From Phyllobacterium sp. YR531 (GTDB lineage Bacteria; Pseudomonadota; Alphaproteobacteria; Rhizobiales; Rhizobiaceae): a stretch of DNA of 64,000 nt. Under the pieces are notes generated by a model, which was not told the origin of the DNA, made no database searches, and saw only the letters and a list, made by a program, of their open reading frames with translations. The stretch is taken from positions 62,001 to 126,000 of the forward strand of contig NZ_AKIZ01000016.1 of NCBI RefSeq assembly GCF_000282595.1. Reading direction: 5' to 3'. Positions 17,385-30,242 of the stretch are shown here, one piece after another. Both the position numbers and the translations under genes were made by a program. The stretch's first letter is position 1. Every line of letters starts with the position of its first letter.

Positions 17385-18011
17385 CTAAATCTGCTCTGAG
17401 ATAGCGGCCTTCATCGCGATTTTCTTCAAAAGCGTAACGAATTCATCTCCAGCGCGCGACATATGCCCTGAATTATCGATCATAATGGCATCAGAAGGAT
17501 CGCAGGGATTTGTACCTGCACGCAAAAGGCGATATTCAATCTCCTTGGCGCTCTCCCGGCCGCGTGCAGCGAGCCGTTGTGCGAGAACTTCGTGAGACGC
17601 GGTGATGTGCACGACAACGAATTGCCCATAGGTCGCGCGCAACGCCGGAATAATCCCGCGCGACACATTTGCTATTGCAACTGCTCCACGCCTGATTTCA
17701 TCGTGAATGGATACCGGCAAACCATAGCACAAGCCATGTGCCTGCCATTGGTGGGCAAAAGCCCCTGACTGCAACGCGATGGCGAACTCTTCCCTACTTA
17801 ATGTATCGTGATCCTCCGCGTCTACTGACGATGGACGGGTTACGACACGACGTACAAAATGAAATCCGGCCTGATCTTTGAGGGCAACTCGCGCATAGTC
17901 GAGAATCGTGTCTTTGCCAGCGCCACTTGGGCCAACAACGGCAACGAACACACCATTCCCTACGAAGCCAGCGGGTTCCAACAGGCGCTCTATTGAAGCC
18001 GAAGCCGTCAT
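17385..18011 (-). CDS. phnN: PhnN, ribose 1,5-bisphosphokinase
   Basis: 208 residues, guanylate-kinase-like. It phosphorylates ribose 1,5-bisphosphate to phosphoribosyl pyrophosphate, returning the sugar from phosphonate breakdown to nucleotide synthesis. The P-loop is VVGPSGAGKDTILDYAR (about residues 24-40). The RRVVTRPSSVDAEDHDTL and SREEF segments match the family. Last gene of the phn operon; its ATG overlaps the phnM stop by one base (TGATG), indicating coupled translation. Confidence 0.93.
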   Translation of the reverse strand: MTASASIERLLEPAGFVGNGVFVAVVGPSGAGKDTILDYARVALKDQAGFHFVRRVVTRPSSVDAEDHDTLSREEFAIALQSGAFAHQWQAHGLCYGLPVSIHDEIRRGAVAIANVSRGIIPALRATYGQFVVVHITASHEVLAQRLAARGRESAKEIEYRLLRAGTNPCDPSDAIMIDNSGHMSRAGDEFVTLLKKIAMKAAISEQI

Positions 18012-19153
18012 CAGACTACCCTTCGCCCCTCACGCCAAACTGTACGCACAACCGGAATATGTTCGTCGACACGAACACGTACGAGATCCGCACGCTTCCC
18101 AATTTCAATAACACCGCGATCATCAAAACCGACAGCTTCTGCTGGGTTCTTGGTAACAAGCCGGATAGCTTCCGGAAGCGTTATTTTGTCAACAGCCTCA
18201 CTTAAAAAGAACGTCGATTGAATCAGACTGAATGGAATATAATCGGAAGACAGGATATCGAGATGCCCATGCTCGGCAAGTTCGCGCGCCGACACATTGC
18301 CGGAATGCGACCCGCCGCGAACCACGTTGGGCGCTCCCATCAACACCGACAGTCCTGCACGTTTGGATGCAGCTGCAGCCTCAAGAGTTGTCGGAAACTC
18401 CGCAACCTGAATGCCCTGCTCTACCGCCTCATCCACATGGGCGGTCGTCGCATCATCATGGCTGGCCAAGACAATCCCGTGAGTTCGGCAAAAATCCGCA
18501 ATCGCCTTGCGGTGCGGACCTGAGTTTTCCGCAGATTGGGCCATTCGCTTTTCGCAGAAAGCATTAAACTCGACGTCCGACAATTTCAGCTTACGTTGGT
18601 AGTAAGTTGCATAAGTTTCAAGGTTGACGAACTGCCGCTGACCCGGCGCATGATCCATAAGGGAGGCAAGGCGGACGCGGTTGTCATTCTCAAAGAATGC
18701 AAATCCATCAAGGCAATCGGCGGCCGAAACCTCGCACCGCAAGTGGAAATAGTGGTCAGCACGCAAACGATCCTGCTGAACGCTATCTTCTATCGCATCG
18801 GCAAGCTTGCGGATTTCCTGCGGCGTCATTTCAGCATCTTCATCCATACCGACGCGCAAGGCATCAAGCACAGTCGTGATGCCCGATGTAGCAATCTGCG
18901 CATCATGGGCAAGTACGGAAGCGATCGGATTCCAGCGGACTTTCGGGCGAGGCATATAATGCCCTTCGAGATGATCCGTGTGGAGTTCAATCAAACCGGG
19001 GATAAGATAATCACCCTCGAAATTTTCCCCCGCAACAGAAGCGGAGCCATTGGAGATATCCGCAATCTTACCATCGCGGACGAGCACAGTTCCCGAAACG
19101 ATTTCGTTTTCGAGAACGATTTTAGCATTGTTCAATATAAGTTCGGCGGACAT
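18011..19153 (-). CDS. phnM: PhnM, ribose 1-methylphosphonate 5-triphosphate diphosphatase
   Basis: 380 residues of the amidohydrolase superfamily. It releases pyrophosphate from alkylphosphonate-ribose triphosphate, giving the 5-phosphate that PhnJ cleaves. The metal site shows GLIELHTDHLEGHYMPRP. Later metal ligands lie in LASHDDATTAHV and the LSSDYIPFSL region; PNVVRGGSHSGN is a PhnM signature. It starts one base after the stop of the 2H phosphoesterase gene. Length fits E. coli PhnM (378). Confidence 0.95.
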   Translation of the reverse strand: MSAELILNNAKIVLENEIVSGTVLVRDGKIADISNGSASVAGENFEGDYLIPGLIELHTDHLEGHYMPRPKVRWNPIASVLAHDAQIATSGITTVLDALRVGMDEDAEMTPQEIRKLADAIEDSVQQDRLRADHYFHLRCEVSAADCLDGFAFFENDNRVRLASLMDHAPGQRQFVNLETYATYYQRKLKLSDVEFNAFCEKRMAQSAENSGPHRKAIADFCRTHGIVLASHDDATTAHVDEAVEQGIQVAEFPTTLEAAAASKRAGLSVLMGAPNVVRGGSHSGNVSARELAEHGHLDILSSDYIPFSLIQSTFFLSEAVDKITLPEAIRLVTKNPAEAVGFDDRGVIEIGKRADLVRVRVDEHIPVVRTVWREGRRVV

Positions 19154-19154
19154 C

Positions 19155-19862
19155 TCACGCGGTCTTTCTTATGTTCGTTCCTGCAAGAGGATGCAGGGAG
19201 TGTACCTCGAATGGGGCACCAGGCTCTGCCTCGGTAAATAATGCGATGTTGTTGATTTCAACGGGCTCTTCGAGGACCGGCTCCAGAAATTCGCTGAGCA
19301 TTTGGGAAATTCGCTCCTGCTCAGGTTCGGCAACGGGATTCGTCAAGGTCATGTGGAAGCGGAAATCATCGAATACATATGGATAGCCCCATTGTTCGAG
19401 ATTTCTTCGTTCGGACACACTCATTCTCTCAGGATTGCGCCTTGCAACTTCCTGTGCGCTTGGAGGCGCGCGAAAACGATCGAATGCGACCACGATATCG
19501 TTGGCCAACTGGTTTAGTTTTGCGACGGGCTCATCAGGGATCAGCGCGAAGAATCCATCCAGATTTGCAATCTTGAGTTTCGGAATTTCCACCGGCTTCA
19601 TCGACGAAGCGAAGTGCATCAATGCCGATAGAAGCTCGCGCTCCTCCAACCCATCAGCAAGATGAAATGGTGCTTTAAGCGTTGCATGGAAGCCGTATCG
19701 GCGCGCCGACTCCGTCAGCTTCGTTATTTCCTCATGGGCAAGGTTACGGATTTGGGGTGCGCGTACGGGCTGCCCGGTAAACGCATTACGGCCCAGCCAG
19801 TTAGCCGCAACTTTAAGCAACGGGTCGCTTGAAGGTGGAGTGAAATAGATTGCATAGCGCAT
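19155..19862 (-). CDS. 2H phosphoesterase-like protein of the phn operon (DUF1045)
   Basis: 235 residues, the DUF1045 phosphonate-operon family. Two H-x-T motifs of 2H phosphoesterases are present: H59-A-T in RYGFHATLKAPFHL and H170-M-T in FRFHMTLTNPV. Known 2H enzymes open cyclic phosphates, including ribose 1'',2''-cyclic phosphates. Because no phnP gene is present here, this protein may replace PhnP, opening 5-phosphoribosyl 1,2-cyclic phosphate made by PhnJ. That role is inference. The gene ends one base before phnM and sits between the transporter genes and phnM-phnN. Confidence 0.82.
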   Translation of the reverse strand: MRYAIYFTPPSSDPLLKVAANWLGRNAFTGQPVRAPQIRNLAHEEITKLTESARRYGFHATLKAPFHLADGLEERELLSALMHFASSMKPVEIPKLKIANLDGFFALIPDEPVAKLNQLANDIVVAFDRFRAPPSAQEVARRNPERMSVSERRNLEQWGYPYVFDDFRFHMTLTNPVAEPEQERISQMLSEFLEPVLEEPVEINNIALFTEAEPGAPFEVHSLHPLAGTNIRKTA

Positions 19863-19937: not shown

Positions 19938-21269
19938 TCAATGCTGTTTTCCCATCAGGCGTGAACGCAGAGCATTGGATATTCCATCAAAGATAAAGAT
20001 CACAGCGAGGATAAGCACGACCATATAGGCAACATTATGCCAGTTGGTATTGGTGCGCATTGCCTCCCATAGTTTCAGACCGATACCCCCGGCACCTACT
20101 GCGCCGATAATGGTAGCCGAACGCGTATTCGACTCCCAGAAGTAAAGCGCCTGGCTGGCAAATACCGGCAACACCTGCGGCAGAACGCCGTAACGCTGAA
20201 CGTTCACAGGAGCAGCACCGACAGATTTGACGCCTTCGCGCTGCTTGTCGTCAATATTTTCCAGTGTCTCGGAATAGACCTTACCCAGTGTACCCGTATC
20301 GGTGAAAAAGATCGCCGAAATACCTGCGAGTGGTCCCGGACCAAATGCACGCGTGAAAAACAGTGCCCAGATCAACATATCTACCGAGCGCAGGAAGTCG
20401 AAGAAACGCTTAGTTATTTGATTGGCAAAGAAGTTCGGCATGATGTTACGAGCGGCGATAAATGCCAATGGAAATGACACCAGTGTTGCCAGCAAAGTCC
20501 CGACGAATGCCATAACGATTGTCTGTAAAAGCTTTGTCCAGACGTCGCCATGCTGCCACGACGAATTGTACCAGATATTATCGAAAGCCAACGCGGCATT
20601 GGACATTTCCGGCTTGATGCGCTCACCACTAACGATCATGGACGCGACTTCGCTTATTGATTTGTTCCAGAATGGCGAAGCGGTATCGAAAACGAAATTT
20701 GCCCAGCCAAGAAAACGGCGGCTGACAACGACGCGTTCCGGAATAATATCTGCTGTTCCGGCAAAACCAAAATTGACGGTGACCTGATCTTCCTTGAGCG
20801 TTGCCCACTCAGGCAACGATCCTTGAGGTTTAGCGCCATCAGCTTCAATCAAAACGAGAAGCTCCTCGCCGCTCCGCTTTGCAACAACCTGTGTCGGACT
20901 GATCTGCAGTGATTTGCCAGCACCAAATGTTACAGTGACTTCATTGCCCTGCTGTATTGCCCAGTCTGGTTTAGGATTATCGCCAAGCTCGGAAAACCTC
21001 GGATAAGTAATGGTTGTTCCTTCTGGACTCATGCGGACGGTGGTGCGGATTGCGTAGGAAATCCAATCACGTGCATAGATTTCTGCACGCTGCCATTGCC
21101 CGGTTGCGAGCACGGTTCCGATGGAAAAGAACCACCAGCAATAAACCAGATAAAGCACGACCCCTGCCCCAATAATAAGCGGCATGAAGCGCTTAAATAT
21201 TGACGGGTTGAAAACATCCGGATAGCGGGACTCAAAGTCTGCAATGCTCAAAGAGGTCATAGTGCTCAT
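19938..21269 (-). CDS. phnE: PhnE, phosphonate ABC transporter permease (long form)
   Basis: 443 residues, far longer than usual PhnE (about 260-330). After a first membrane segment (about residues 31-55) comes a soluble stretch of roughly 150 residues rich in beta-type sequence (TVRMSPEGTTITYPRF, GNEVTVTFGAGKSLQI, QVTVNFGFAGTADII). This is probably periplasmic. The normal permease core follows, with the EAA-type loop EGVKSVGAAPVNVQRYGVLPQ. The ATG overlaps the stop of the first permease gene (ATGA). It likely pairs with that permease. The extra domain is described under findings. Confidence 0.9.
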   Translation of the reverse strand: MSTMTSLSIADFESRYPDVFNPSIFKRFMPLIIGAGVVLYLVYCWWFFSIGTVLATGQWQRAEIYARDWISYAIRTTVRMSPEGTTITYPRFSELGDNPKPDWAIQQGNEVTVTFGAGKSLQISPTQVVAKRSGEELLVLIEADGAKPQGSLPEWATLKEDQVTVNFGFAGTADIIPERVVVSRRFLGWANFVFDTASPFWNKSISEVASMIVSGERIKPEMSNAALAFDNIWYNSSWQHGDVWTKLLQTIVMAFVGTLLATLVSFPLAFIAARNIMPNFFANQITKRFFDFLRSVDMLIWALFFTRAFGPGPLAGISAIFFTDTGTLGKVYSETLENIDDKQREGVKSVGAAPVNVQRYGVLPQVLPVFASQALYFWESNTRSATIIGAVGAGGIGLKLWEAMRTNTNWHNVAYMVVLILAVIFIFDGISNALRSRLMGKQH

Positions 21270-22234
21270 GACTGTTTACCGCCAAATGCGAAAGCCTGAT
21301 TGCCGATCAGGCGTCGACGTAGCCAAGCGGAAAATTGGTCAACCGCAATTATTGTCGCAAGAAGCAATAGTATTATTGCCAATGTCTTGGCTTGATGGCC
21401 GCGCCCGATTGACAAACGCAGTTCTTCACCAATACCACCGCCACCAACGGCTCCTATGATTGTTGAAGCACGCACATTTATTTCAAGACGCAGCAGAGCA
21501 TAGGACATGAAATTCGGCATTACCTGCGGGACGATGCCGAAGCCGACGCGTTCAAACCAGTTGGCTCCCACCGCACGCAGCCCTTCATCTGCCTTCATAT
21601 CGGCATTCTCGACCACTTCAAAGAATAGTTTGCCAAGCGCGCCAACGGTGTGAATGCCAACCGCAAACATGGCCGGTATAGGCCCAAGCGACAGGATTGC
21701 AGCAAAAAATCCGGCAATGACGATTTCCGGAAACGCGCGTAAAATTTCCATGTAACGGCGCGCAAAAAATCTGATGAGCTTGCTCTTTACGAGATTCTTT
21801 GCGGCCAGGAAGCAAAGCAGAAATCCAAAAAACGCCCCCACCAAAGTGGAAATAATGGCGATATTCAGCGTCTCCAGCATTTTGTAGAAATATTCGGGAA
21901 TGTAGAACGCGCCAAAGACATATACGCGCCCCTCGGGATAGTCGAACTTGAGGCTGCCGTCAAAATAGGGAGATGGTAAATCGAACAGCGCCCGCCAAAC
22001 CTCCCAGCCGTCCCGCGGGATAAGATCACCGGCAAAATCGAAGAAATGCGGAAGCCGGTCAAAAAATTTACCAGCGTTTGACTCGTTCGCAAACCACAGC
22101 GAACCGGAGACAGCAACGAGCAAACCAATCCCGATCAACCAGGAATAAGCACGGCGGCGACCGGCAAGTTCCTGCCAGTGACGCTCGATCTCAATGCCGT
22201 CAGGCGTCAGTTCTGTCGAGTTAGCGCGGCTCAT
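21266..22234 (-). CDS. phnE: PhnE, phosphonate ABC transporter permease
   Basis: About 322 residues from ATG 22234, placed seven bases after GGAAGGA; two earlier in-frame ATGs lie too close to or before that site. It has an N-terminal transmembrane helix (SWLIGIGLLVAVSGSLWFA), a periplasmic segment, then the permease core with the EAA-type loop DEGLRAVGANWFERVGFGIVPQ. It is the first of two permease genes, following phnD. In many rhizobia two PhnE proteins form the channel as a heterodimer, and the overlap with the next gene supports that. Confidence 0.9.
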   Translation of the reverse strand: MSRANSTELTPDGIEIERHWQELAGRRRAYSWLIGIGLLVAVSGSLWFANESNAGKFFDRLPHFFDFAGDLIPRDGWEVWRALFDLPSPYFDGSLKFDYPEGRVYVFGAFYIPEYFYKMLETLNIAIISTLVGAFFGFLLCFLAAKNLVKSKLIRFFARRYMEILRAFPEIVIAGFFAAILSLGPIPAMFAVGIHTVGALGKLFFEVVENADMKADEGLRAVGANWFERVGFGIVPQVMPNFMSYALLRLEINVRASTIIGAVGGGGIGEELRLSIGRGHQAKTLAIILLLLATIIAVDQFSAWLRRRLIGNQAFAFGGKQS

Positions 22235-22260
22235 GGGCATATCCTTCCCGAGCATAAAAA

Positions 22261-22304: not shown

Positions 22305-23219
22305 TTAACCGCCGATCTGCGCCTTGCGAGCGTCGATGATTGGCTGATAGAATTCAGTATTCACTTCGGTATAGCTCTTGAAATCACCGCCCATCGTTGC
22401 AGCAAAGCAGGCCGGATCAGATTTTGGAAGCTCCAGCATAAAGTTCTTGAACTTTGTCTTGGTGTCGCTGTCGAGAGAAGTACGAACAACAATTGGACCG
22501 TTAGGAATAAGTGGCGACTTCCACAATTCGACAAAATCTTTCATGTCGATGATGCCCTTATCGACCATCTTGCGCAGATTGCCGGAAGTATAACCTTCGT
22601 CAAACTTACCAACACCCGAACCGAAAGTGGTACCTGCGTCGAACTTGCCGTCCTTAACTGCGAGAACGAGGTTTTCATGACCGCCACCGAAACCGGTTTC
22701 GCTAAAGTATTCCTTTACCGAGGTTTTGATGTCTTTTGGCAAAGAGGTAACAGGAATGAGGTAGCCTGAGGTTGAATCAGGGTCAGCAAAGCCGAGCTTC
22801 TTGCCCTTCATGTCTGCAAGTGTCTTGATGCCACTGTCCTTGCGGGCAACCATGATGGAATAATATCCCGTTGCGCCATCAGTCTGTACTGTGGTCAGAA
22901 TTGGCTCAACAGCCTTCGGATCAGTCAGATAGATTTTTGCAAAACCCGAGGCACCAAGCTCAGCATAATCAAGGGTACCGCCCAGCAGACCCTGGATAAC
23001 GCCATCATAATCAGTTGCCGGGAAAAGCTTGACGTCCTTGACGCCAAGAACCTTCGGCAGCTGATCGACAATGCACTGGTAGTTGCGCAGGCGATCAGCT
23101 TCGTTTTCTCCACCGATAATGCCAACGCGAAATGTTTCAAGATTTTCTGCGCGAGCCATTGAACCGGCTACCATTGCGCCGATTGCGATAGCGCCAAGAA
23201 GGGCTTTTTTGAGCAACAT
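22305..23219 (-). CDS. phnD: PhnD, periplasmic phosphonate-binding protein
   Basis: 304 residues with a signal peptide ending near SMARA (residue 24). It catches phosphonates in the periplasm and hands them to the PhnE permeases. The family core shows FRVGIIGGENEADRLRNY, followed by LFPATDYDGVIQGLLGGTLD and the ligand-loop stretch KKLGFADPDSTSGYLIP, where Ser/Thr backbones hold the phosphonate. Ligand range cannot be told; E. coli PhnD prefers 2-aminoethylphosphonate. It lies between phnC (77-base gap) and phnE. Confidence 0.95.
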   Translation of the reverse strand: MLLKKALLGAIAIGAMVAGSMARAENLETFRVGIIGGENEADRLRNYQCIVDQLPKVLGVKDVKLFPATDYDGVIQGLLGGTLDYAELGASGFAKIYLTDPKAVEPILTTVQTDGATGYYSIMVARKDSGIKTLADMKGKKLGFADPDSTSGYLIPVTSLPKDIKTSVKEYFSETGFGGGHENLVLAVKDGKFDAGTTFGSGVGKFDEGYTSGNLRKMVDKGIIDMKDFVELWKSPLIPNGPIVVRTSLDSDTKTKFKNFMLELPKSDPACFAATMGGDFKSYTEVNTEFYQPIIDARKAQIGG

Positions 23220-23296: not shown

Positions 23297-24130
23297 TCAG
23301 CGAGCGGCCAGAATGGCCTCAAGCTCGGGAATGGGCTTCGGCGCAGTGCGCGAAATGCTTGTCGATGTAATTGCTTCTGAAAATGCGTCCTTCAGGCCAT
23401 CCGCACCGTAAATACGGCGCGCAGCCATTTCTGTCAGATCGTCCGGTCCTCCGTCGAAAACGAGCTTGCCACCCTGCATGCCGATGATCCGCTGGCAAAA
23501 ATGACGCGCGGTATCGAGCGTATGCAGATTGGTTATAACTGTCAGTCCTTCGCGCTCGTTGATGTCGCGCAGCGATTCCATCACAACCTGAGCATTGCGC
23601 GGGTCAAGCGAAGCAATCGGTTCATCTGCGAGAATGACCTTGGGATTTTGCATGAGCGCCCGCGCAATTGCCACTCGCTGCTGTTGACCGCCGGAAAGCG
23701 TACCAGCACGCTGAAGAGCTGTTTTAGCTATATCCAACCGTTCAAGCGCGGCTATCGCCATGGCACGCTCTTCACGGGAAAAGATGCCGAGAAGGCTTTT
23801 AATTGTGGAGCGGTGATTGAGACGGCCAAGCAGCACGTTCGTAAGAACATCAAGGCGTGGCACCAGATTGAACTGCTGGAAGATCATTGCGCAATCGCGC
23901 TGCCAATTGCGCAATGGAGTTCCCCGCAGTCGGGCAACATCCGTACCATCGAAAATTATTGATCCCTCCGAAGGGTCAATCAACCGGTTGATCATGCGCA
24001 GCAAAGTAGATTTGCCTGCACCCGACCGGCCGATAATGCCAACCATCTGACCTTGCGGAATTTCTACATTGACGTTGTCGATGGCAATGTTATTGCCAAA
24101 GCGCCGCGTCACGTTTTCGATTTTCAGCAT
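23297..24130 (-). CDS. phnC: PhnC, phosphonate ABC transporter ATPase
   Basis: 277 residues, the ATPase of the phosphonate importer. Walker A is [13 protein letters not shown], the Q-loop [13 protein letters not shown], the signature [15 protein letters not shown], and Walker [13 protein letters not shown]. PhnC-specific features include the early [12 protein letters not shown] strand and the [16 protein letters not shown] approach to the signature. It starts the transporter half of the operon after a 96-base gap, enough for an internal promoter. Confidence 0.95.
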
Positions 24131-24226: not shown

Positions 24227-24841
24227 TTAAGCGCCATGTTTTTCGAGGAATTCCTGGATGTCCAGTTTGCGAAAATCCTCAAGCGCAGCACGCAACTCTG
24301 CGTGATCCCAATCCCACCAAGCAAGCAACTGCAACCGTTCGGCAGTCTTTGAATCAAACCGGTCGCGGATCTTTTTGGCCGGAACACCACCCACAATTGT
24401 GTAAGGAGCAACTTCCTTCGAGACTACAGCTCCGGCACCGATAACCGCGCCGTCTCCGACATTTACACCAGGAAGGATTGTTGCGCCGTGACCAATCCAT
24501 ACATCGTGGCCGATGGTGACAAGATTTGATCGGCGCCAGTCAAAAAACTCTTCATCAACACCAGCGTCATCCCAGTATTCTGATGAGCGATATGTGAAGT
24601 GGTGGAGCGTTGGCCGCCATGTTGGATGGTTGGTAGCGTTAATCCGAACGCTGGCTGCAATATTGGCAAACTTACCAATTCTCGCACACCAGACGGCGCC
24701 GTCCTGCATAATGTAGGAATAATCCCCAAGGATGGTCTCACTGATGCGGCAACGCTCTGAAACTTCCGTATAAAGTCCGAGCTCAGATGCATGAACCGTG
24801 GCAGTTTCGTGCACCAGAGGTGTTTCTGACAAGCGGCTCAT
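24227..24841 (-). CDS. Hexapeptide-repeat transferase of the phn operon (TIGR03308 type)
   Basis: 204 residues folding as a left-handed beta helix. Hexapeptide repeats run from about residue 20 to 160 (YSYIMQDGAVWCARIGKF, VTIGHDVWIGHGATILPG, VNVGDGAVIGAGAVVSKEV), ending at the PYTIVGGVPAKKIRDRF motif of xenobiotic/Vat-type acetyltransferases. It overlaps the phnL stop (ATGA), so it is an integral part of the operon. A role in acetylating an aminoalkylphosphonate or an intermediate, as PhnO does in E. coli by another fold, is a reasonable guess but unproven. Confidence 0.85.
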   Translation of the reverse strand: MSRLSETPLVHETATVHASELGLYTEVSERCRISETILGDYSYIMQDGAVWCARIGKFANIAASVRINATNHPTWRPTLHHFTYRSSEYWDDAGVDEEFFDWRRSNLVTIGHDVWIGHGATILPGVNVGDGAVIGAGAVVSKEVAPYTIVGGVPAKKIRDRFDSKTAERLQLLAWWDWDHAELRAALEDFRKLDIQEFLEKHGA

Positions 24842-25548
24842 GCTGCTATACCGTTTTGAACAGCAAAAGCCGTCACGTCGATAATCCGATCAGCAACGGC
24901 CTCACGAACATCGTCGTCGTGGAAGATGCCGAGCATTGCGACGCCAGCGTTTTTCTTGTCACGGATCATCGAAACTACAACATCGCGGTTCTTGGCATCC
25001 AGTGATGCAGTTGGCTCATCAAGCAACAGGATCGGATGATCCGTAATGAAGCCCCGCGCAATATTGACGCGTTGCTGCTCGCCGCCCGAAAAAGTTGCTG
25101 GAGGCAATGACCACAAGCGTTCCGGCAGGTTTAGCCCAGCAAGCAGTGCAGCAGCCCTGCCCCGTGCCTCATCCCTGTCAATACCACGTGCGATAAGTGG
25201 TTCTGCAACCACGTCAAGCGCTGAAACACGTGGCACAGTGCGCAGAAACTGACTTACATAGCCAATCAGATCACGACGTATGCCCAACATTGTACGCGGG
25301 TCGGCAGATGCAACATCGACCAGCCGGTCACGGTAAGGCACGATGATCTGTCCGGAATCAACAGCGTAATTGCCATAGATCATTTTGAGGATCGAGCTTT
25401 TGCCAGCGCCTGACGGCCCACCCAGTACTGCACATTCCCCTGCTTTTATGGAGAAAGAGACGTTTGCGACCACAGGCAAGCGGATACTATCCCGCAGATG
25501 CATGGTGAAACTCTTGGCGACATCGGAGACAACGAGAGGTGTCGGCAT
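24838..25548 (-). CDS. phnL: PhnL, C-P lyase complex ABC-type ATPase
   Basis: 236 residues from ATG 25548, two bases after the phnK stop. It is an ABC ATPase of the C-P lyase system, not of a transporter. Walker A GGPSGAGKSSILKM, the long Q-loop region VSQFLRTVPRVSALDVV, signature FSGGEQQRVNIARGF and Walker B ILLLDEPTASLD are all present. PhnL joins phosphonate and ribose nucleotide in the PhnGHI-PhnL step and docks on PhnK in the E. coli complex. Confidence 0.95.
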   Translation of the reverse strand: MPTPLVVSDVAKSFTMHLRDSIRLPVVANVSFSIKAGECAVLGGPSGAGKSSILKMIYGNYAVDSGQIIVPYRDRLVDVASADPRTMLGIRRDLIGYVSQFLRTVPRVSALDVVAEPLIARGIDRDEARGRAAALLAGLNLPERLWSLPPATFSGGEQQRVNIARGFITDHPILLLDEPTASLDAKNRDVVVSMIRDKKNAGVAMLGIFHDDDVREAVADRIIDVTAFAVQNGIAA

Positions 25549-25550
25549 AA

Positions 25551-26327
25551 TCAAACCTGTAGAATGGAGGAAACAAGAAGCTGTGTGTATGGCGCTTGCG
25601 GATCGTCCAGAACGCGGTCGGTAAGACCGGTTTCAATGACGTGACCATCCTTCATAACCATCATGCGATGCGACAGCAGGCGGGCAACAGCAAGATCGTG
25701 GGTCACGACGATTGCCGCCAGGCCAAGATCGCTGACGAGACCGCGCAGCAAATCGAGGAGCCTTGCCTGTACGGAGACATCCAACCCGCCAGTCGGTTCA
25801 TCCATGAAAACAAGGCGCGGATTGGTCACCAGATTACGGGCGATCTGTAGACGTTGACGCATGCCACCGGAAAAGTCGCGCGGTTGATCATCAATGCGAT
25901 CACCGGCGATCTCGACACGGCTAAGCCAATCGGTGGCAGTGGCGCGAATATTGCCATAGTGCCTGTCACCGATGGCCATCAATCTTTCGCCAACATTTGC
26001 GCCTGCAGACACGGTCATTCGCAAGCCGTCCGCCGGGTTTTGGTGGACAAATCCCCAATCCGTGCGCATGAGAAAGCGACGCTCCGCCTCACCCATCCGG
26101 TAAAGATCACGGAAGTTTCCATCACGCGTCCGGTACTCGACTGTTCCTGCTGACGGAGCGAGTCGCGTTGCCAAACAGTTGAGCAATGTGGTCTTGCCAG
26201 AACCAGATTCACCAACGACGGCAAGCACTTCACCGGGAAACAGCTCGAACGAGACGTTCTGGCAACCGATGCGGCTTCCGTAAAACTTGGATAACGCTCC
26301 AACTTTCAAAAGAGGTGTATCGCTCAC
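25551..26327 (-). CDS. phnK: PhnK, C-P lyase complex ABC-type ATPase
   Basis: 258 residues from GTG 26327, preceded at seven bases by GGAGG and overlapping the phnJ stop as GTGA. An upstream in-frame ATG at 26393 would run well into phnJ. Motifs are Walker A GESGSGKTTLLN, signature FSGGMRQRLQIARNL and Walker B LVFMDEPTGGLD; the start SDTPLLKVGALSKFYG is PhnK-like. It resembles peptide-transport ATPases but binds the PhnGHIJ core. Its ATPase cycle gates access to the PhnJ active site. Confidence 0.95.
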   Translation of the reverse strand: MSDTPLLKVGALSKFYGSRIGCQNVSFELFPGEVLAVVGESGSGKTTLLNCLATRLAPSAGTVEYRTRDGNFRDLYRMGEAERRFLMRTDWGFVHQNPADGLRMTVSAGANVGERLMAIGDRHYGNIRATATDWLSRVEIAGDRIDDQPRDFSGGMRQRLQIARNLVTNPRLVFMDEPTGGLDVSVQARLLDLLRGLVSDLGLAAIVVTHDLAVARLLSHRMMVMKDGHVIETGLTDRVLDDPQAPYTQLLVSSILQV

Positions 26328-27205
26328 TCTGCTGCCTCCGCTTGTGCCGGCGATAAATGACCGCGATGTCCCGCAGCCTGCCGCTCTTCGCAAAAATCCG
26401 TATCGGAACAGACAAACATGCTGCCCCCTTTGTCATCCAGTATGACTTCATCGAGATAACTGCCCTTAGCGGCGCACAAAGCGCAGGGCTGGGAAAATGT
26501 CTGGACTTCGAACGGATGATCCTCGAAATCGAGACTGACAACCTGCGTATATGGAGGGATCGCGTAAATGCGTTTTTCCCGCCCTGCTCCGAAAAGCTGC
26601 AGCGCCGGAGAATTGTGCATTTTGGGGTTATCAAATTTTGGCGTGGGAGATGGGTCCATCACATAACGCCCCTCGACCTTCACCGGATAGGCATAGGTGG
26701 TCGCGATATGGCCGTGGCGAGCAATATCCTCGTAGAGTTTCACATGCATGAGCCCGTATTCTTCAAGAGCATGCATCTTGCGCGTCTCAGTCTCACGTGG
26801 TTCGAGAAACCGTAGCGGTTCCGGGATAGGCACCTGATAGACCAATGTCTGTCCCGCCTGCAGCGCAGTTTCGGGAATACGATGGCGTGTTTGTATGATC
26901 GTTGCTTCGGTGGTTTTCGTTGTTACCGGAACATTCGCGACTTTCTGGAAGAACGCACGGATTGAAACAGCGTTGGTCGTATCGTCAGCGCCCTGATCAA
27001 TAACCTTCAGGGTGTCGTTTGGGCCAATAATCGCGGCGGTGACCTGAACACCGCCCGTACCCCACCCATAGGGCATAGGCATCTCACGGCTGGCGAAAGG
27101 CACCTGATACCCCGGGATAGCGATAGCCTTCAGGATAGCCCTGCGGATCATGCGCTTGGTCTGCTCATCAAGATAGGCAAAATTATACGTCGCAAGCTCG
27201 GTCAT
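26324..27205 (-). CDS. phnJ: PhnJ, C-P lyase
   Basis: 293 residues. This radical SAM-type enzyme breaks the carbon-phosphorus bond, giving an alkane and 5-phosphoribosyl 1,2-cyclic phosphate. The cysteines fall at residues 241, 244, 266 and 272 (C-x2-C-x21-C-x5-C), the same numbers as the conserved E. coli PhnJ cysteines used for cluster and catalysis. The N-terminal AYLDEQTKRMIRRAILKAIA-like region and PMPYGWGTGG are also diagnostic. The start overlaps the phnI stop (ATGA). Nothing suggests loss of activity. Confidence 0.97.
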   Translation of the reverse strand: MTELATYNFAYLDEQTKRMIRRAILKAIAIPGYQVPFASREMPMPYGWGTGGVQVTAAIIGPNDTLKVIDQGADDTTNAVSIRAFFQKVANVPVTTKTTEATIIQTRHRIPETALQAGQTLVYQVPIPEPLRFLEPRETETRKMHALEEYGLMHVKLYEDIARHGHIATTYAYPVKVEGRYVMDPSPTPKFDNPKMHNSPALQLFGAGREKRIYAIPPYTQVVSLDFEDHPFEVQTFSQPCALCAAKGSYLDEVILDDKGGSMFVCSDTDFCEERQAAGHRGHLSPAQAEAAE

Positions 27206-28299
27206 TCTGCGGCCTCTTTGATCTGACTTTTTTGATTTTCATGTTCACCGCGCATACGACGCACGAGATCAAGTTCTGCCTGAAAGTCCACATAATGAGG
27301 CAACTTCAAGTGCTCGACGAACCCGGTCGACTGAACATTGTCACTATGTGAAATGACGAATTCCTCGTCTTGTGCAGCCGCAGTGATATCCTCGCCAAGC
27401 TCCCTCGCCCGCAATGCGCGATCACAAAGAGCCATCGACATCGATTTGCGTTCGCTTTGACCAAAAACGAGTCCATATCCGCGCGTAAACTGCGGCGGTT
27501 GCTTCGATGATCCCTTGAACTGATTGACCATCTGGCATTCGGTGAGGCGAATCCGGCCAAGTGTCAGGGGAAAATCGAGTTCAGCGACTTCAAGCTCAAC
27601 TTCAACCTCGCCGATGCGAATTTCACCGGCAAAAGGGTGGCTACGTGCGTATCCACGTTGTGTAGAGTAAGCCAATCCAAGCAGAAAACCCTCATCACCA
27701 CGCGCTAGCGCCTGAAGCCTCAAATCACGCTCCAGCGGGAAAGTCAGCGGCTCGCGCGTCAGATCACCTATTTCGCTGCCGTCCGGCATGTCACCATCGG
27801 CTTCGATCATGCCGTCATGACCAAGAATGTCGGTCACACGTGGCGTATGTTCATGTGCCTCCACACGCTTGTCCGGCATTTCAACGGGCATGTCTTCAGC
27901 AAGCTCAGGATCAAGCAGACGATGGGTATAGTCGAACGTTGGTCCCAACAATTGTCCGCCGGGCAAATCCTTGAATGTCGCAGAAATACGCCGTTCAATC
28001 ATCATTTGCGAGGTTTCGACAGGCTTGGTGTAACCGAAGCGAGGCAAGGTTGTGCGATACGCACGGACAAGGAAAATCGCTTCTATCATATCACCACGCG
28101 CCTGCTTTACGGCAAGCGCGGCAAGTTCAGCATCATAAAGCGAGCCTTCGGCCATAACGCGATCGACAGCCAGTGCCAACTGCTCGACAATCTGATCCAG
28201 TCCTATGGCAGGGACCGAGCGGTCGCCGCGGCGACGATCCGCCAGAAGCTTATGAGCATTGCGGATAGCGGCTTCGCCACCCTTAACAGCTACATACAT
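27202..28299 (-). CDS. phnI: PhnI, C-P lyase core subunit
   Basis: 365 residues, matching E. coli PhnI (354). With PhnG and PhnH it catalyses displacement of adenine from ATP by the phosphonate; PhnI alone acts as a nucleosidase. The start MYVAVKGGEAAI is the family's signature. Other conserved stretches are GFLLGLAYSTQRGYARSHPF, then LTLGRIRLTECQMVNQF and GYGLVFGQSERKSMSMALCD. It is embedded in phnG-H-I-J with a three-base gap after phnH. Confidence 0.97.
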   Translation of the reverse strand: MYVAVKGGEAAIRNAHKLLADRRRGDRSVPAIGLDQIVEQLALAVDRVMAEGSLYDAELAALAVKQARGDMIEAIFLVRAYRTTLPRFGYTKPVETSQMMIERRISATFKDLPGGQLLGPTFDYTHRLLDPELAEDMPVEMPDKRVEAHEHTPRVTDILGHDGMIEADGDMPDGSEIGDLTREPLTFPLERDLRLQALARGDEGFLLGLAYSTQRGYARSHPFAGEIRIGEVEVELEVAELDFPLTLGRIRLTECQMVNQFKGSSKQPPQFTRGYGLVFGQSERKSMSMALCDRALRARELGEDITAAAQDEEFVISHSDNVQSTGFVEHLKLPHYVDFQAELDLVRRMRGEHENQKSQIKEAAE

Positions 28300-28302
28300 G
28301 GC

Positions 28303-28914
28303 TCAAGCCTCCTTATTTAAAATTCGAGTGGTGCGAGGCAAAGCGGCCAGCAAGCCGTTTCCTGCGAAGATCAGATCAATGCCACGAGGGAATGCACCAC
28401 GATTTGCCGCCCATTGCTCAGTAAACATTCTAGGGAGTTGGCTTGGGGAAAACGCTTGCGTGCCCTTTATTCCGGGCCCTTCCAGAGTTAGCGAAGTCTG
28501 CGCCTCAAAACCGGCGACCTGTAAAATGATGGTCGTCGAGCGGTCAGGATACTCGGACGTGCCTTTGGCAAAGGCATCAAACGACGGCATGTTGTCAATA
28601 TCGGTGACCAATGCGAAATCAGCACCCGCAGGGTCATTCGTAAGCTCAAGACCAGTGTGAAACTTCAGCCACCCTAATGCGGCTTCCGATGCTTTAATCG
28701 GTTTGTCACACCAAACTGTAGCATCGTGGTCGAACAATGTAGCAGCTATTGATGCCGCAACCGGCGTCAAAGGTGACGGAGCCTGAGCCAGATCACCCAC
28801 AGAAACGATGCGGCCGGGATTGGCCATTGCATCCATCAACGCACGAAATATTTCCTGCGAACCAAGAACGCTATCAGCGAAACCACCTTCAAAAACCTGA
28901 GTTGCAGCACGCAT
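28303..28914 (-). CDS. phnH: PhnH, C-P lyase core subunit
   Basis: 203 residues from ATG 28914, whose A is the last base of the phnG stop (TGATG). A ribosome site GGAG lies inside phnG. PhnH is a structural subunit of the PhnGHIJ core. Conserved features include VFRALMDAMANPGRIV-like sequence (here EIFRALMDAMANPGR), LTLEGPGIKGTQ and FPRGIDLIFA. Length agrees with E. coli PhnH (194). Confidence 0.95.
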   Translation of the reverse strand: MRAATQVFEGGFADSVLGSQEIFRALMDAMANPGRIVSVGDLAQAPSPLTPVAASIAATLFDHDATVWCDKPIKASEAALGWLKFHTGLELTNDPAGADFALVTDIDNMPSFDAFAKGTSEYPDRSTTIILQVAGFEAQTSLTLEGPGIKGTQAFSPSQLPRMFTEQWAANRGAFPRGIDLIFAGNGLLAALPRTTRILNKEA

Positions 28915-29408
28915 CAATCATCTCCCCGTACCATCGTAAAAAAATCAACCTTGGTCGCAGCGGTCTCAGCCCGCTTTTGCTCAAGACTTTCACCCAAACG
29001 TTTGGCGATGGGAGCAAGCACCTCATCTGCAACGGCCTGGCGATGAACCGGCTCCTGCCAAAGCGCATCAAAGACAGCCGCCAGCCTGACCTTTTCGCTC
29101 GAACGTCCAAGTGCGTAGGCGTGCCCAACAGCACCGTTACCCAGCCGCACAGTCGCCCGTGTCACTGTGGCTTCACCCAGATTAAAAGCAGAACCGCCAC
29201 CACCAATGCGTCCCCGAACCATGACCAGTCCCGTTTCCGGACCACGCAATGTTTCGACTTCAGGCTTGTTTTCCCAGTCGTTCCAGAACTGCCGCAACTC
29301 TTGCGCAGTTGCCTGCGCAAGAAGCGCCATAGACGACTTGCGGCCGAGATCAGTAGCCTCAAGGTTCACGTCCGGATGCGTACCTGTTTCCAAATTTGAA
29401 CTGCTCAT
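28914..29408 (-). CDS. phnG: PhnG, C-P lyase core subunit
   Basis: 164 residues from ATG 29408, six bases after GAGG; an in-frame GTG at 29414 is less likely. It is the first gene of the phn operon and the smallest core subunit. Typical stretches are LEATDLGRKSSMALLAQA, PETGLVMVRGRIGGGG and FNLGEATVTRATVRL. It lies divergently from the regulator phnF across a 90-base gap containing inverted repeats, the probable control region for the whole 12-kb operon. Confidence 0.94.
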   Translation of the reverse strand: MSSSNLETGTHPDVNLEATDLGRKSSMALLAQATAQELRQFWNDWENKPEVETLRGPETGLVMVRGRIGGGGSAFNLGEATVTRATVRLGNGAVGHAYALGRSSEKVRLAAVFDALWQEPVHRQAVADEVLAPIAKRLGESLEQKRAETAATKVDFFTMVRGDD

Positions 29409-29426
29409 TGACACCTCGCAACAATT

Positions 29427-29498: not shown

Positions 29499-30242
29499 AT
29501 GCGCTCAAGCCATTTGATTACGAGAAACAGCGGCGTGGCCGTGTGGCGGCAGATCGCTGATCAAATCAGAGGTGACATTTCTGCCGGCAAAATGGCCAGC
29601 GGTGTGCGTATGCCACCAGAGATTGAATTGGCGACGCGCTTTGCGGTAAACCGCCATACAATCCGTAGTGCGATAGCTGCATTGACCAAGGAAGGTGTTC
29701 TCAGGGCAGAACAGGGACGCGGAACCTTTGTCGCCAATGCAAAAAAACTGACCTACCGCATTGGCGAGCGAACAAGATTTTCGGAAATCCTTTCCACACA
29801 GGTCCGTGAAACAAAAGGTGTCCTTCTTGGTTCGAACGTGGAAGAACCCACAGCGGAGATCGCGGCGGCCCTCGGAATGCAATCTGGCACGGTCATCAAA
29901 ATCGACACAATGCACACGGCAGACGGTAATCCGATATCGTGCGCGACGTCATGGTTTGATGCCTCTCGCGTTCCGAACATAATACAGGATTACAGCGCAT
30001 CGGGCTCTGTCACGGCAGCTTTCAAACAAGCCGGAATTGAAGATTATCTGCGCAAATCCACAATTATTGGAGCTCGCCATGCGGATGCGGAGGATTTACG
30101 ACACCTGCAACTGTCTCCCGGCGCTATTGTCCTGGTCGCTACCGCAATAAATGTCGATATGGATGGGCATCCTGTCGAGTATGCGAAAACACGCTTTGCT
30201 GCCGACCGTATGGAGATTGCGATCGGCAACAATAAGACCTGA
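29499..30242 (+). CDS. phnF: PhnF, GntR/HutC-type regulator of the phn operon
   Basis: 247 residues. The N-terminal winged helix is clear: VAVWRQIADQIRGDISAGK, RMPPEIELATRFAVNRHTIR and AALTKEGVLRAEQGRGTFV. The C-terminal UTRA ligand-binding domain follows from about residue 95. It is divergent from phnG, the standard place for PhnF. In the family it usually represses until a phosphonate-derived or phosphate signal binds. Confidence 0.92.
   Translation: MRSSHLITRNSGVAVWRQIADQIRGDISAGKMASGVRMPPEIELATRFAVNRHTIRSAIAALTKEGVLRAEQGRGTFVANAKKLTYRIGERTRFSEILSTQVRETKGVLLGSNVEEPTAEIAAALGMQSGTVIKIDTMHTADGNPISCATSWFDASRVPNIIQDYSASGSVTAAFKQAGIEDYLRKSTIIGARHADAEDLRHLQLSPGAIVLVATAINVDMDGHPVEYAKTRFAADRMEIAIGNNKT

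Follow-up and report, generated by a model that had tools for sequence, protein, structure and literature searches.

A DUF1045 protein of the 2H phosphoesterase superfamily as the probable replacement for PhnP in the phn operon of Phyllobacterium sp. YR531

PhnP, which opens the ring of 5-phosphoribosyl 1,2-cyclic phosphate (PRcP) in Escherichia coli, has a metallo-beta-lactamase (MBL) fold. PMC3463581 describes its reaction and reports that phnP strains accumulate ribosyl 1,2-cyclic phosphate. PRcP is also the substrate of the PhnPP-type enzyme (NF041661, phosphoribosyl 1,2-cyclic phosphate 1,2-diphosphodiesterase), which has a PHP fold and, according to the excerpt of PMC8774927, leads to ribose 5-phosphate.

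Replacement of PhnP by a 2H protein is an already known proposal, in print in papers of 2013, 2021 and 2023 (PMC3840354, PMC8235418, PMC10574752), cited here from excerpts. A phnP-less Rhodobacteraceae fosmid carrying a 2H gene allows E. coli deleted for phnHIJKLMNOP to grow on methylphosphonate, and its 2H protein, 'RcsF', was proposed in the role of PhnP (PMC3840354). DUF1045 next to phnM is named as a proposed phosphoribosyl cyclic phosphodiesterase in PMC8235418, which cites earlier work for this, and PMC10574752, citing a 2009 paper, reports on 54 phnM operons, with PhnP in 27 and rcsF in 16 that lack PhnP. The 2H/PhnP analogy is repeated in excerpts of PMC6981132 and PMC5649143, and a DUF1045 protein appears in a phosphorus-stress table in that of PMC10132767. 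No biochemical assay of a DUF1045 protein was found in the literature searched; a search on DUF1045 itself led to PMC8235418 and PMC10132767, whose excerpts contain none. That the 2H gene of these papers is DUF1045 is stated in PMC8235418; for 'RcsF' elsewhere, including the fosmid of PMC3840354, we infer the same identity. What is added here is the exclusion of DUF1045 and PhnP at the genome scale, with a phylogenetic caveat, a three-way link to PhnN, a case against an MBL-fold paralogue and a TIM-barrel lead.

The window, a stretch of 64,000 nucleotides of Phyllobacterium sp. YR531, contains a full C-P lyase operon in the order phnGHIJKL, hexapeptide transferase, phnCDEE, DUF1045, phnM, phnN, with phnF divergent. 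The features are as follows:

17385..18011, minus strand: phnN, ribose 1,5-bisphosphokinase (TIGR02322, 216 bits, cut-off 156; NCBIfam equivalog)
18011..19153, minus strand: phnM, ribose 1-methylphosphonate 5-triphosphate diphosphatase (NF011983, 645 bits; TIGR02318, 503 bits; NCBIfam equivalog)
19155..19862, minus strand: 2H phosphoesterase (DUF1045/TIGR03223) with a predicted role as phosphoribosyl 1,2-cyclic phosphate phosphodiesterase (ORF, family matches, predicted fold)
19347..19355, minus strand: predicted catalytic HxT motif 2, H170-M-T172 (coordinates computed from the ORF start)
19680..19688, minus strand: predicted catalytic HxT motif 1, H59-A-T61 (coordinates computed from the ORF start)
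19938..21269, minus strand: phnE, second permease (TIGR01097, 251 bits)
21266..22255, minus strand: phnE, first permease (TIGR01097, 246 bits)
22305..23219, minus strand: phnD (TIGR03431, 328 bits)
23297..24130, minus strand: phnC (TIGR02315, 328 bits)
24227..24841, minus strand: phn-associated hexapeptide-repeat transferase (TIGR03308, 314 bits)
24838..25554, minus strand: phnL (TIGR02324, 325 bits)
25551..26393, minus strand: phnK (TIGR02323, 407 bits)
26324..27205, minus strand: phnJ, C-P lyase making the cyclic phosphate (PF06007, E 3.4e-149)
27202..28299, minus strand: presumed phnI (from its place, flanked by phnH and phnJ; NCBIfam gave no match at 1e-40)
28303..28917, minus strand: phnH (TIGR03292, 187 bits)
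28914..29414, minus strand: phnG (TIGR03293, 162 bits)
29499..30242, plus strand: phnF regulator, divergent (TIGR02325, 312 bits)

The DUF1045 reading frame starts with ATG and encodes 235 amino acids. It lies just before phnM and phnN on the same strand, as an earlier note on this DNA had placed it, with one base between its stop and the phnM start. By their coordinates phnM and phnN share a single base, and this spacing of the three genes suggests coupled translation.

Family searches with the protein (234 of the 235 residues, the first codon being omitted) placed it in TIGR03223, 'Phn_opern_protn', a hypothetical-equivalog family of phosphonate operons (280.6 bits, curated cut-off 248.95), and in Pfam PF06299, DUF1045 (208.5 bits, cut-off 24.3). 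It scored barely above the cut-offs of LigT_PEase (24.9 bits, cut-off 23.3) and 2_5_RNA_ligase2 (27.2 bits, cut-off 27). TIGR03223 was its sole NCBIfam match at E<=1, with none to the PhnP family TIGR03307. Residues 59 and 170 are histidines and residues 61 and 172 threonines, which gives the two HxT motifs of the 2H superfamily; these residues and the TIGR03223 and PF06299 scores bear out the earlier description of the gene product as a DUF1045 protein with two such motifs (H59, H170). The protein agrees with the 'RcsF' 2H proteins of phn operons in family (above cut-off), in its phnM/phnN neighbourhood, in the absence of phnP and in the proposed reaction. Nothing essential separates it from the published DUF1045/'RcsF' proteins, and it is one more member, known from sequence.

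The predicted (not solved) structure of the DUF1045 protein has the 2H fold. The model, for which 46 sequences from the window and the loci were aligned as input (mean pLDDT 94.5, pTM 0.90), gave 28 Foldseek matches in the PDB at E<=0.001, including YjcG, LigT, two Pyrococcus 2'-5' RNA ligase-like proteins, Thermus TT0787, human Usb1, other phosphoesterases and four trypanosomatid mitoribosome chains; no PhnP was among the structural matches listed. TM-scores by query length ranged from 0.40 to 0.54, which indicates a fold in common and no close kinship. The plant member of the superfamily, the Arabidopsis cyclic phosphodiesterase, carries two HxT motifs and opens the ring of ADP-ribose 1'',2''-cyclic phosphate (Appr>p). 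Its structures 1FSI, 1JH6 and 1JH7 were also matched, and their PDB title names Appr>p, a ribose 1,2-cyclic phosphate. Identity to the Arabidopsis enzyme is 9-11% at a TM-score of about 0.5, and the DUF1045 protein differs from it in being longer and in having conserved arginines. When the DUF1045 alignment was used as a profile against solved structures, it gave two matches only (E 0.49 and 0.98).

Conservation was read from a 48-row alignment of the window protein and 47 of 57 DUF1045 matches, omitting six fragments, a copy of the window gene, one identical row and two that were similar. Y56, H59, P65, G159, Y160 and L173 are invariant; H170, T61 and R142 are each conserved in 47 of 48 rows, K63 and R131 in 46, and R141 in 44, the other four having K. 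With HxS counted as HxT, both motifs are intact in 47 of the 48 members. The sole row without them is L187:379-1263 (G403), an off-operon DUF1045 paralogue that lacks T, H and T at positions 61, 170 and 172.

PhnJ (PF06007) was searched in 398 genomes of the phylum and gave a match in 84, above cut-off in 83; the 80-genome set used here omits G040 (match below cut-off), G313, G390 and the window genome G000, which was searched alone. Among these 80 proteobacterial PhnJ-positive genomes, 59 have DUF1045, 19 have PhnP above cut-off, none has both and two have neither. All 55 PhnJ-positive genomes of the window's class in the set carry DUF1045, and the remaining 25 comprise four with DUF1045, 19 with PhnP and two with neither; family f43 contains carriers of either gene. 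In 14 well-known genomes used as controls, DUF1045 was absent and PhnP was above cut-off in E. coli only.

A second sample was drawn from named PhnJ loci, the best 80 of 586 that a diverse PhnJ alignment had picked out in reference genomes. Fifty of these best 80 were hand-chosen, with isolates preferred, and 48 genomes were searched (without L167 and L147). DUF1045 was found in 23 of the 48, PhnP above cut-off in five and below it in one (G444, 186 bits), and the two together in none; PhnP relatives with weak scores (91 and 86 bits) occur in two further genomes, which lack PhnN. The 48 overlap with the 80-genome set in at least one genome, since G410 of L149 equals G265, judged from identical coordinates. 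The survey for mutual exclusion that had been suggested for phnP and DUF1045 therefore turned up both genes in 0 of 80 and 0 of 48 PhnJ-positive genomes, with PhnP counted above its cut-off.

These clean counts rest on few evolutionary events, as the exclusion follows ancestry. In a 139-row PhnJ tree the DUF1045 and PhnP states change only two times, and the independent-pairs test of DUF1045 against PhnP is uninformative; this weakens the exclusion as strong independent evidence. It is a quick tree with long branches flagged, from which L017 and L036 (several PhnJ copies) were omitted and in which L113 was scored as lacking DUF1045. Fisher values were likewise discounted, the rows being related and the pooled rows counting G410/G265 twice. 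The two genomes with neither gene, G377 (L186) and G374 (L185), belong to family f49 and have phnJ and phnN; neither PhnP nor DUF1045 was found genome-wide. The PhnJ tree places them close to a PhnP carrier, and the phnN of one lacks the first 29 profile positions, the other looking whole.

The link to PhnN was followed in 91 loci with home-built profiles at thresholds of 60 bits for DUF1045, 60 for PhnN, 100 for PhnM, 200 for PhnP and 80 for PHP. The loci were the best 80 of 586 named ones and 11 plasmid loci hand-chosen from 60 listed of 215 records, and many end at contig ends. PHP enzymes were sought at the loci, DUF1045, PhnP and PhnN also at the genome level. DUF1045 accompanies PhnN and PhnM in 13 of the 91 loci, PhnP accompanies them in 10, a PHP enzyme occurs with PhnM and without PhnN in 25, PhnM alone in 33 and none of these genes in eight (80 of the 91 being the best 80 of 586). 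One locus has PhnN and PhnM only (L091, which ends with its metagenome contig) and one a DUF1045 fragment only (L113). At the set thresholds no locus combines two of DUF1045, PhnP and PHP, 23 of the 24 PhnN loci have DUF1045 or PhnP, and none of the 25 PHP-type loci has PhnN, again among loci of which 80 are the best 80 of 586. Against NF041661, whose cut-off is 500, the PHP proteins of Rubneribacter and L151 scored 494.2 and 323.1 bits.

Whole-genome searches gave PhnN (E<=1e-20) in 29 of the 29 named genomes with DUF1045 or PhnP, in 27 of them above its own cut-off, and in 0 of the 19 others. It was also found in 78 of the 80 proteobacterial PhnJ genomes. The two without it, G016 and G032, have DUF1045 and count against a strict DUF1045-PhnN rule; G377 and G374 have PhnN without DUF1045 or PhnP. 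These searches scored at most 36 or at most 56 candidates per genome, and some absences may be misses. In independent-pairs tests, DUF1045 or PhnP against PhnN gave four to five pairs for and none against, of seven (median p 0.0625); DUF1045 against PhnN in PhnP-less rows gave three to four for and at most one against, of four. As the PHP enzyme leads to ribose 5-phosphate, PhnN would not be needed after it. PhnN tracks DUF1045 or PhnP and not PHP. In this respect DUF1045 resembles PhnP, the pattern to be expected were ribose 1,5-bisphosphate the product of DUF1045; the earlier argument that PhnN downstream needs this product has gained in strength.

We consider it very probable that the DUF1045 2H protein replaces PhnP as the ring-opening enzyme. 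The replacement had been raised in the earlier note as something that may occur, and it is supported by the exclusion, by the PhnN linkage and by the absence of any PhnP above cut-off, alongside the family, motifs, predicted fold and operon linkage established here. The substrate, the bond broken and the roles of the residues are what we infer from these. By analogy with the 2H superfamily, a metal-independent phosphoesterase would take the place of the metallo-enzyme PhnP. H59 and H170, with T61 and T172, would form an acid/base pair cleaving the bond from phosphorus to the ribose O2, and the phosphate would stay on C1, as with the plant cyclic phosphodiesterase acting on Appr>p. The product, ribose 1,5-bisphosphate, would be the substrate from which the neighbouring PhnN makes PRPP. 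The family-conserved basic residues K63, R131, R141 and R142 are candidates for holding the 5-phosphate.

Linkage was scored as a distance of at most 15 kb from phnJ and at most 3 kb from phnN for 68 of 72 DUF1045 matches; the other four were three additional fragments of the copies that are split in G194, and a match short of the cut-off. Of the 68 places, 33 are near both phnJ and phnN, 14 near phnJ only, seven near phnN only and 14 near neither. The seven phnN-only copies lie 1.26-1.37 kb from phnN, about one phnM length. At least one linked copy is present in 50 of 59 genomes, and in the other nine DUF1045 is found only at a distance from phnJ and from phnN; many of these genomes are drafts, in which contig ends may hide linkage. 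PhnP, whose reaction DUF1045 is proposed to share, adjoins phnN in E. coli and is near both phnJ and phnN in 19 of 19 cases; DUF1045 is often near phnN. In G194 two further DUF1045 copies lie in pieces (L188:4318-4966 and 17406-18121), and an unbroken copy is near phnJ and phnN too.

DUF1045 also occurs in five of 80 PhnJ-negative genomes, all five among the 40 of the window's class. Twenty of these 80 were listed as negative and 60 inferred to be so from their absence among the PhnJ matches; 74 have a completeness of 90% or more and a contamination of 5% or less. Such copies, like the unlinked ones, leave room for a role outside phosphonate use. PRcP can form when PRPP breaks down. Compatible with ring opening by DUF1045 would be a broader main role, the clearing of ribosyl 1,2-cyclic phosphates of any source, which would let the gene persist outside phn operons too. 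A PhnM-like neighbour is found at three of the 13 unlinked places read (of 14) and beside one of the five copies in PhnJ-negative genomes; the genes are L210:4172-5518, L213:6730-7947, L219:6565-7752 and L232:7493-8656, one of them in a PhnJ-less genome. No conserved alternative home emerged, as no neighbour is common to more than three of the 13 loci, which also speaks for breadth. However, DUF1045 is strongly associated with PhnJ and PhnN, and among the matches listed in a search on repair of PRPP-derived cyclic phosphate nothing was on point by title or abstract. A broader main role is possible and, in our judgement, rather doubtful.

A different substrate for DUF1045, e.g., an RNA 2',3'-cyclic phosphate or a side product, with the ring opened by an unrecognised enzyme, seems improbable. 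The 2H fold serves several substrates, with LigT, Usb1 and YjcG among the structures matched, and the nine genomes with DUF1045 only off the operon would fit this alternative. On the other hand, ring opening must precede PhnN, DUF1045 mostly fills the PhnP slot near PhnN, and the published fosmid works without PhnP.

The earlier statement that no PhnP-like gene is present holds as far as the curated PhnP family is concerned: in the window genome (99.91% complete), TIGR03307 gave six matches at E<=10, all below the cut-off of 272.25. It does not hold for distant relatives, since the best match, an MBL-fold paralogue at G000:C41:53629-54402, reaches 53.3 bits (E 4.6e-14) and covers nearly the full length, positions 1-247 of 249. 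The paralogue scores nearer NF038231 and NF002553 than TIGR03307 (218.9 bits against NF038231, cut-off 360, compared with 55 bits against the PhnP model). Its neighbours are, as we take them from their sequences, tatD-, metG- and ybaK-like genes. All 20 PhnJ-negative genomes tried in the window's class have it as well, hence it does not go with the pathway, and we regard it as most probably a housekeeping MBL protein. Weak PhnP relatives (36-86 bits against the cut-off of 272) are found in 34 of the 59 DUF1045 genomes; TIGR03307 at E<=1e-8 has matches in 53 of the 80 PhnJ-positive genomes and none in 25 of the 59. That the paralogue opens the ring, with another role in the operon for DUF1045, is highly improbable despite its being the best and nearly full-length match: given its score, its closeness to other MBL models and its occurrence in PhnJ-negative genomes, we rejected it as the ring opener, and with it the PhnP homologue elsewhere in the genome that would have spoken against DUF1045.

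Xylose-isomerase-like TIM barrels of PF01261 (Pfam; some ORFs taken stop to stop) occur in operons without DUF1045, PhnP, PHP and PhnN:

L082:13685-14464, haloarchaeon: PF01261 TIM barrel at or just after the phnM end
L122:13543-14505: PF01261 TIM barrel at or just after the phnM end
L129:13601-14668: PF01261 TIM barrel at or just after the phnM end
L084:16598-17359, Thermus: PF01261 TIM barrel 2.9 kb after phnM
L144:12444-13295: PF01261 TIM barrel just after phnL

With phmmer, a TIM barrel was found at the phnM end in L108 (217 bits) and perhaps L106 (72 bits, cut by the contig end), with weak matches in L090, L096 and L098 (56-59 bits) and a match of 96 bits in L113, the locus with the DUF1045 fragment. 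No phmmer match fell in the 13 DUF1045+PhnN or the 10 PhnP+PhnN loci. The PF01261 TIM barrel as ring opener was not met in the literature searched, and 'xylose isomerase-like' is not mentioned among the matches listed in a search on phnM and C-P lyase. PF00459 inositol-monophosphatase-like proteins lie by phnM in L093:4096-5385, L107:12748-14445 and L109:18414-19274, loci without known ring-opening enzymes or PhnN. Both PF01261 and PF00459 proteins are candidates for ring opening or the next step, PF00459 being less telling because it also occurs in the PHP loci L112 and L131.

Directly after phnM, the two Ktedono-type operons, in which the known enzymes are missing, have L145:13804-14379 (HD domain PF01966, Pfam) and L146:13819-14388 (alike by eye). 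Mini phn operons on a Labrenzia conjugative plasmid (L081) and a Proteus mobilizable plasmid (L086) consist of phnGHI, PhnJ and two ATPases; they lack phnM, phnN and all three cyclic phosphodiesterases in their vicinity, adjoin an ABC transporter annotated for iron, and their PhnJ rows stand apart on the PhnJ tree.

We tentatively speculate that ring opening is a replacement hot spot served by at least four unrelated folds (the MBL fold of PhnP, the 2H fold of DUF1045, the PHP fold of PhnPP-like enzymes, and the PF01261 TIM barrel in archaeal, Desulfobacterota and other operons with none of these three). A stop at ribose 1,5-bisphosphate would decide whether PhnN is retained, and off-operon DUF1045 by PhnM-like genes, in one case in a PhnJ-less genome, may represent a separate clearance of ribose cyclic phosphates.

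The scores and spread of the paralogue suggest that broad family labels may tag such housekeeping MBL genes 'PhnP'. Seven Marivita genomes are said to contain phnP in the excerpt of PMC8774927. For DUF1045, the PhnN link turns a published guess into a sharp product prediction, ribose 1,5-bisphosphate. With the DUF1045 protein in the place of PhnP, the last gap of the C-P lyase route, which serves glyphosate and methylphosphonate use and methane release, would be filled in those members of the window's class that carry phn genes.
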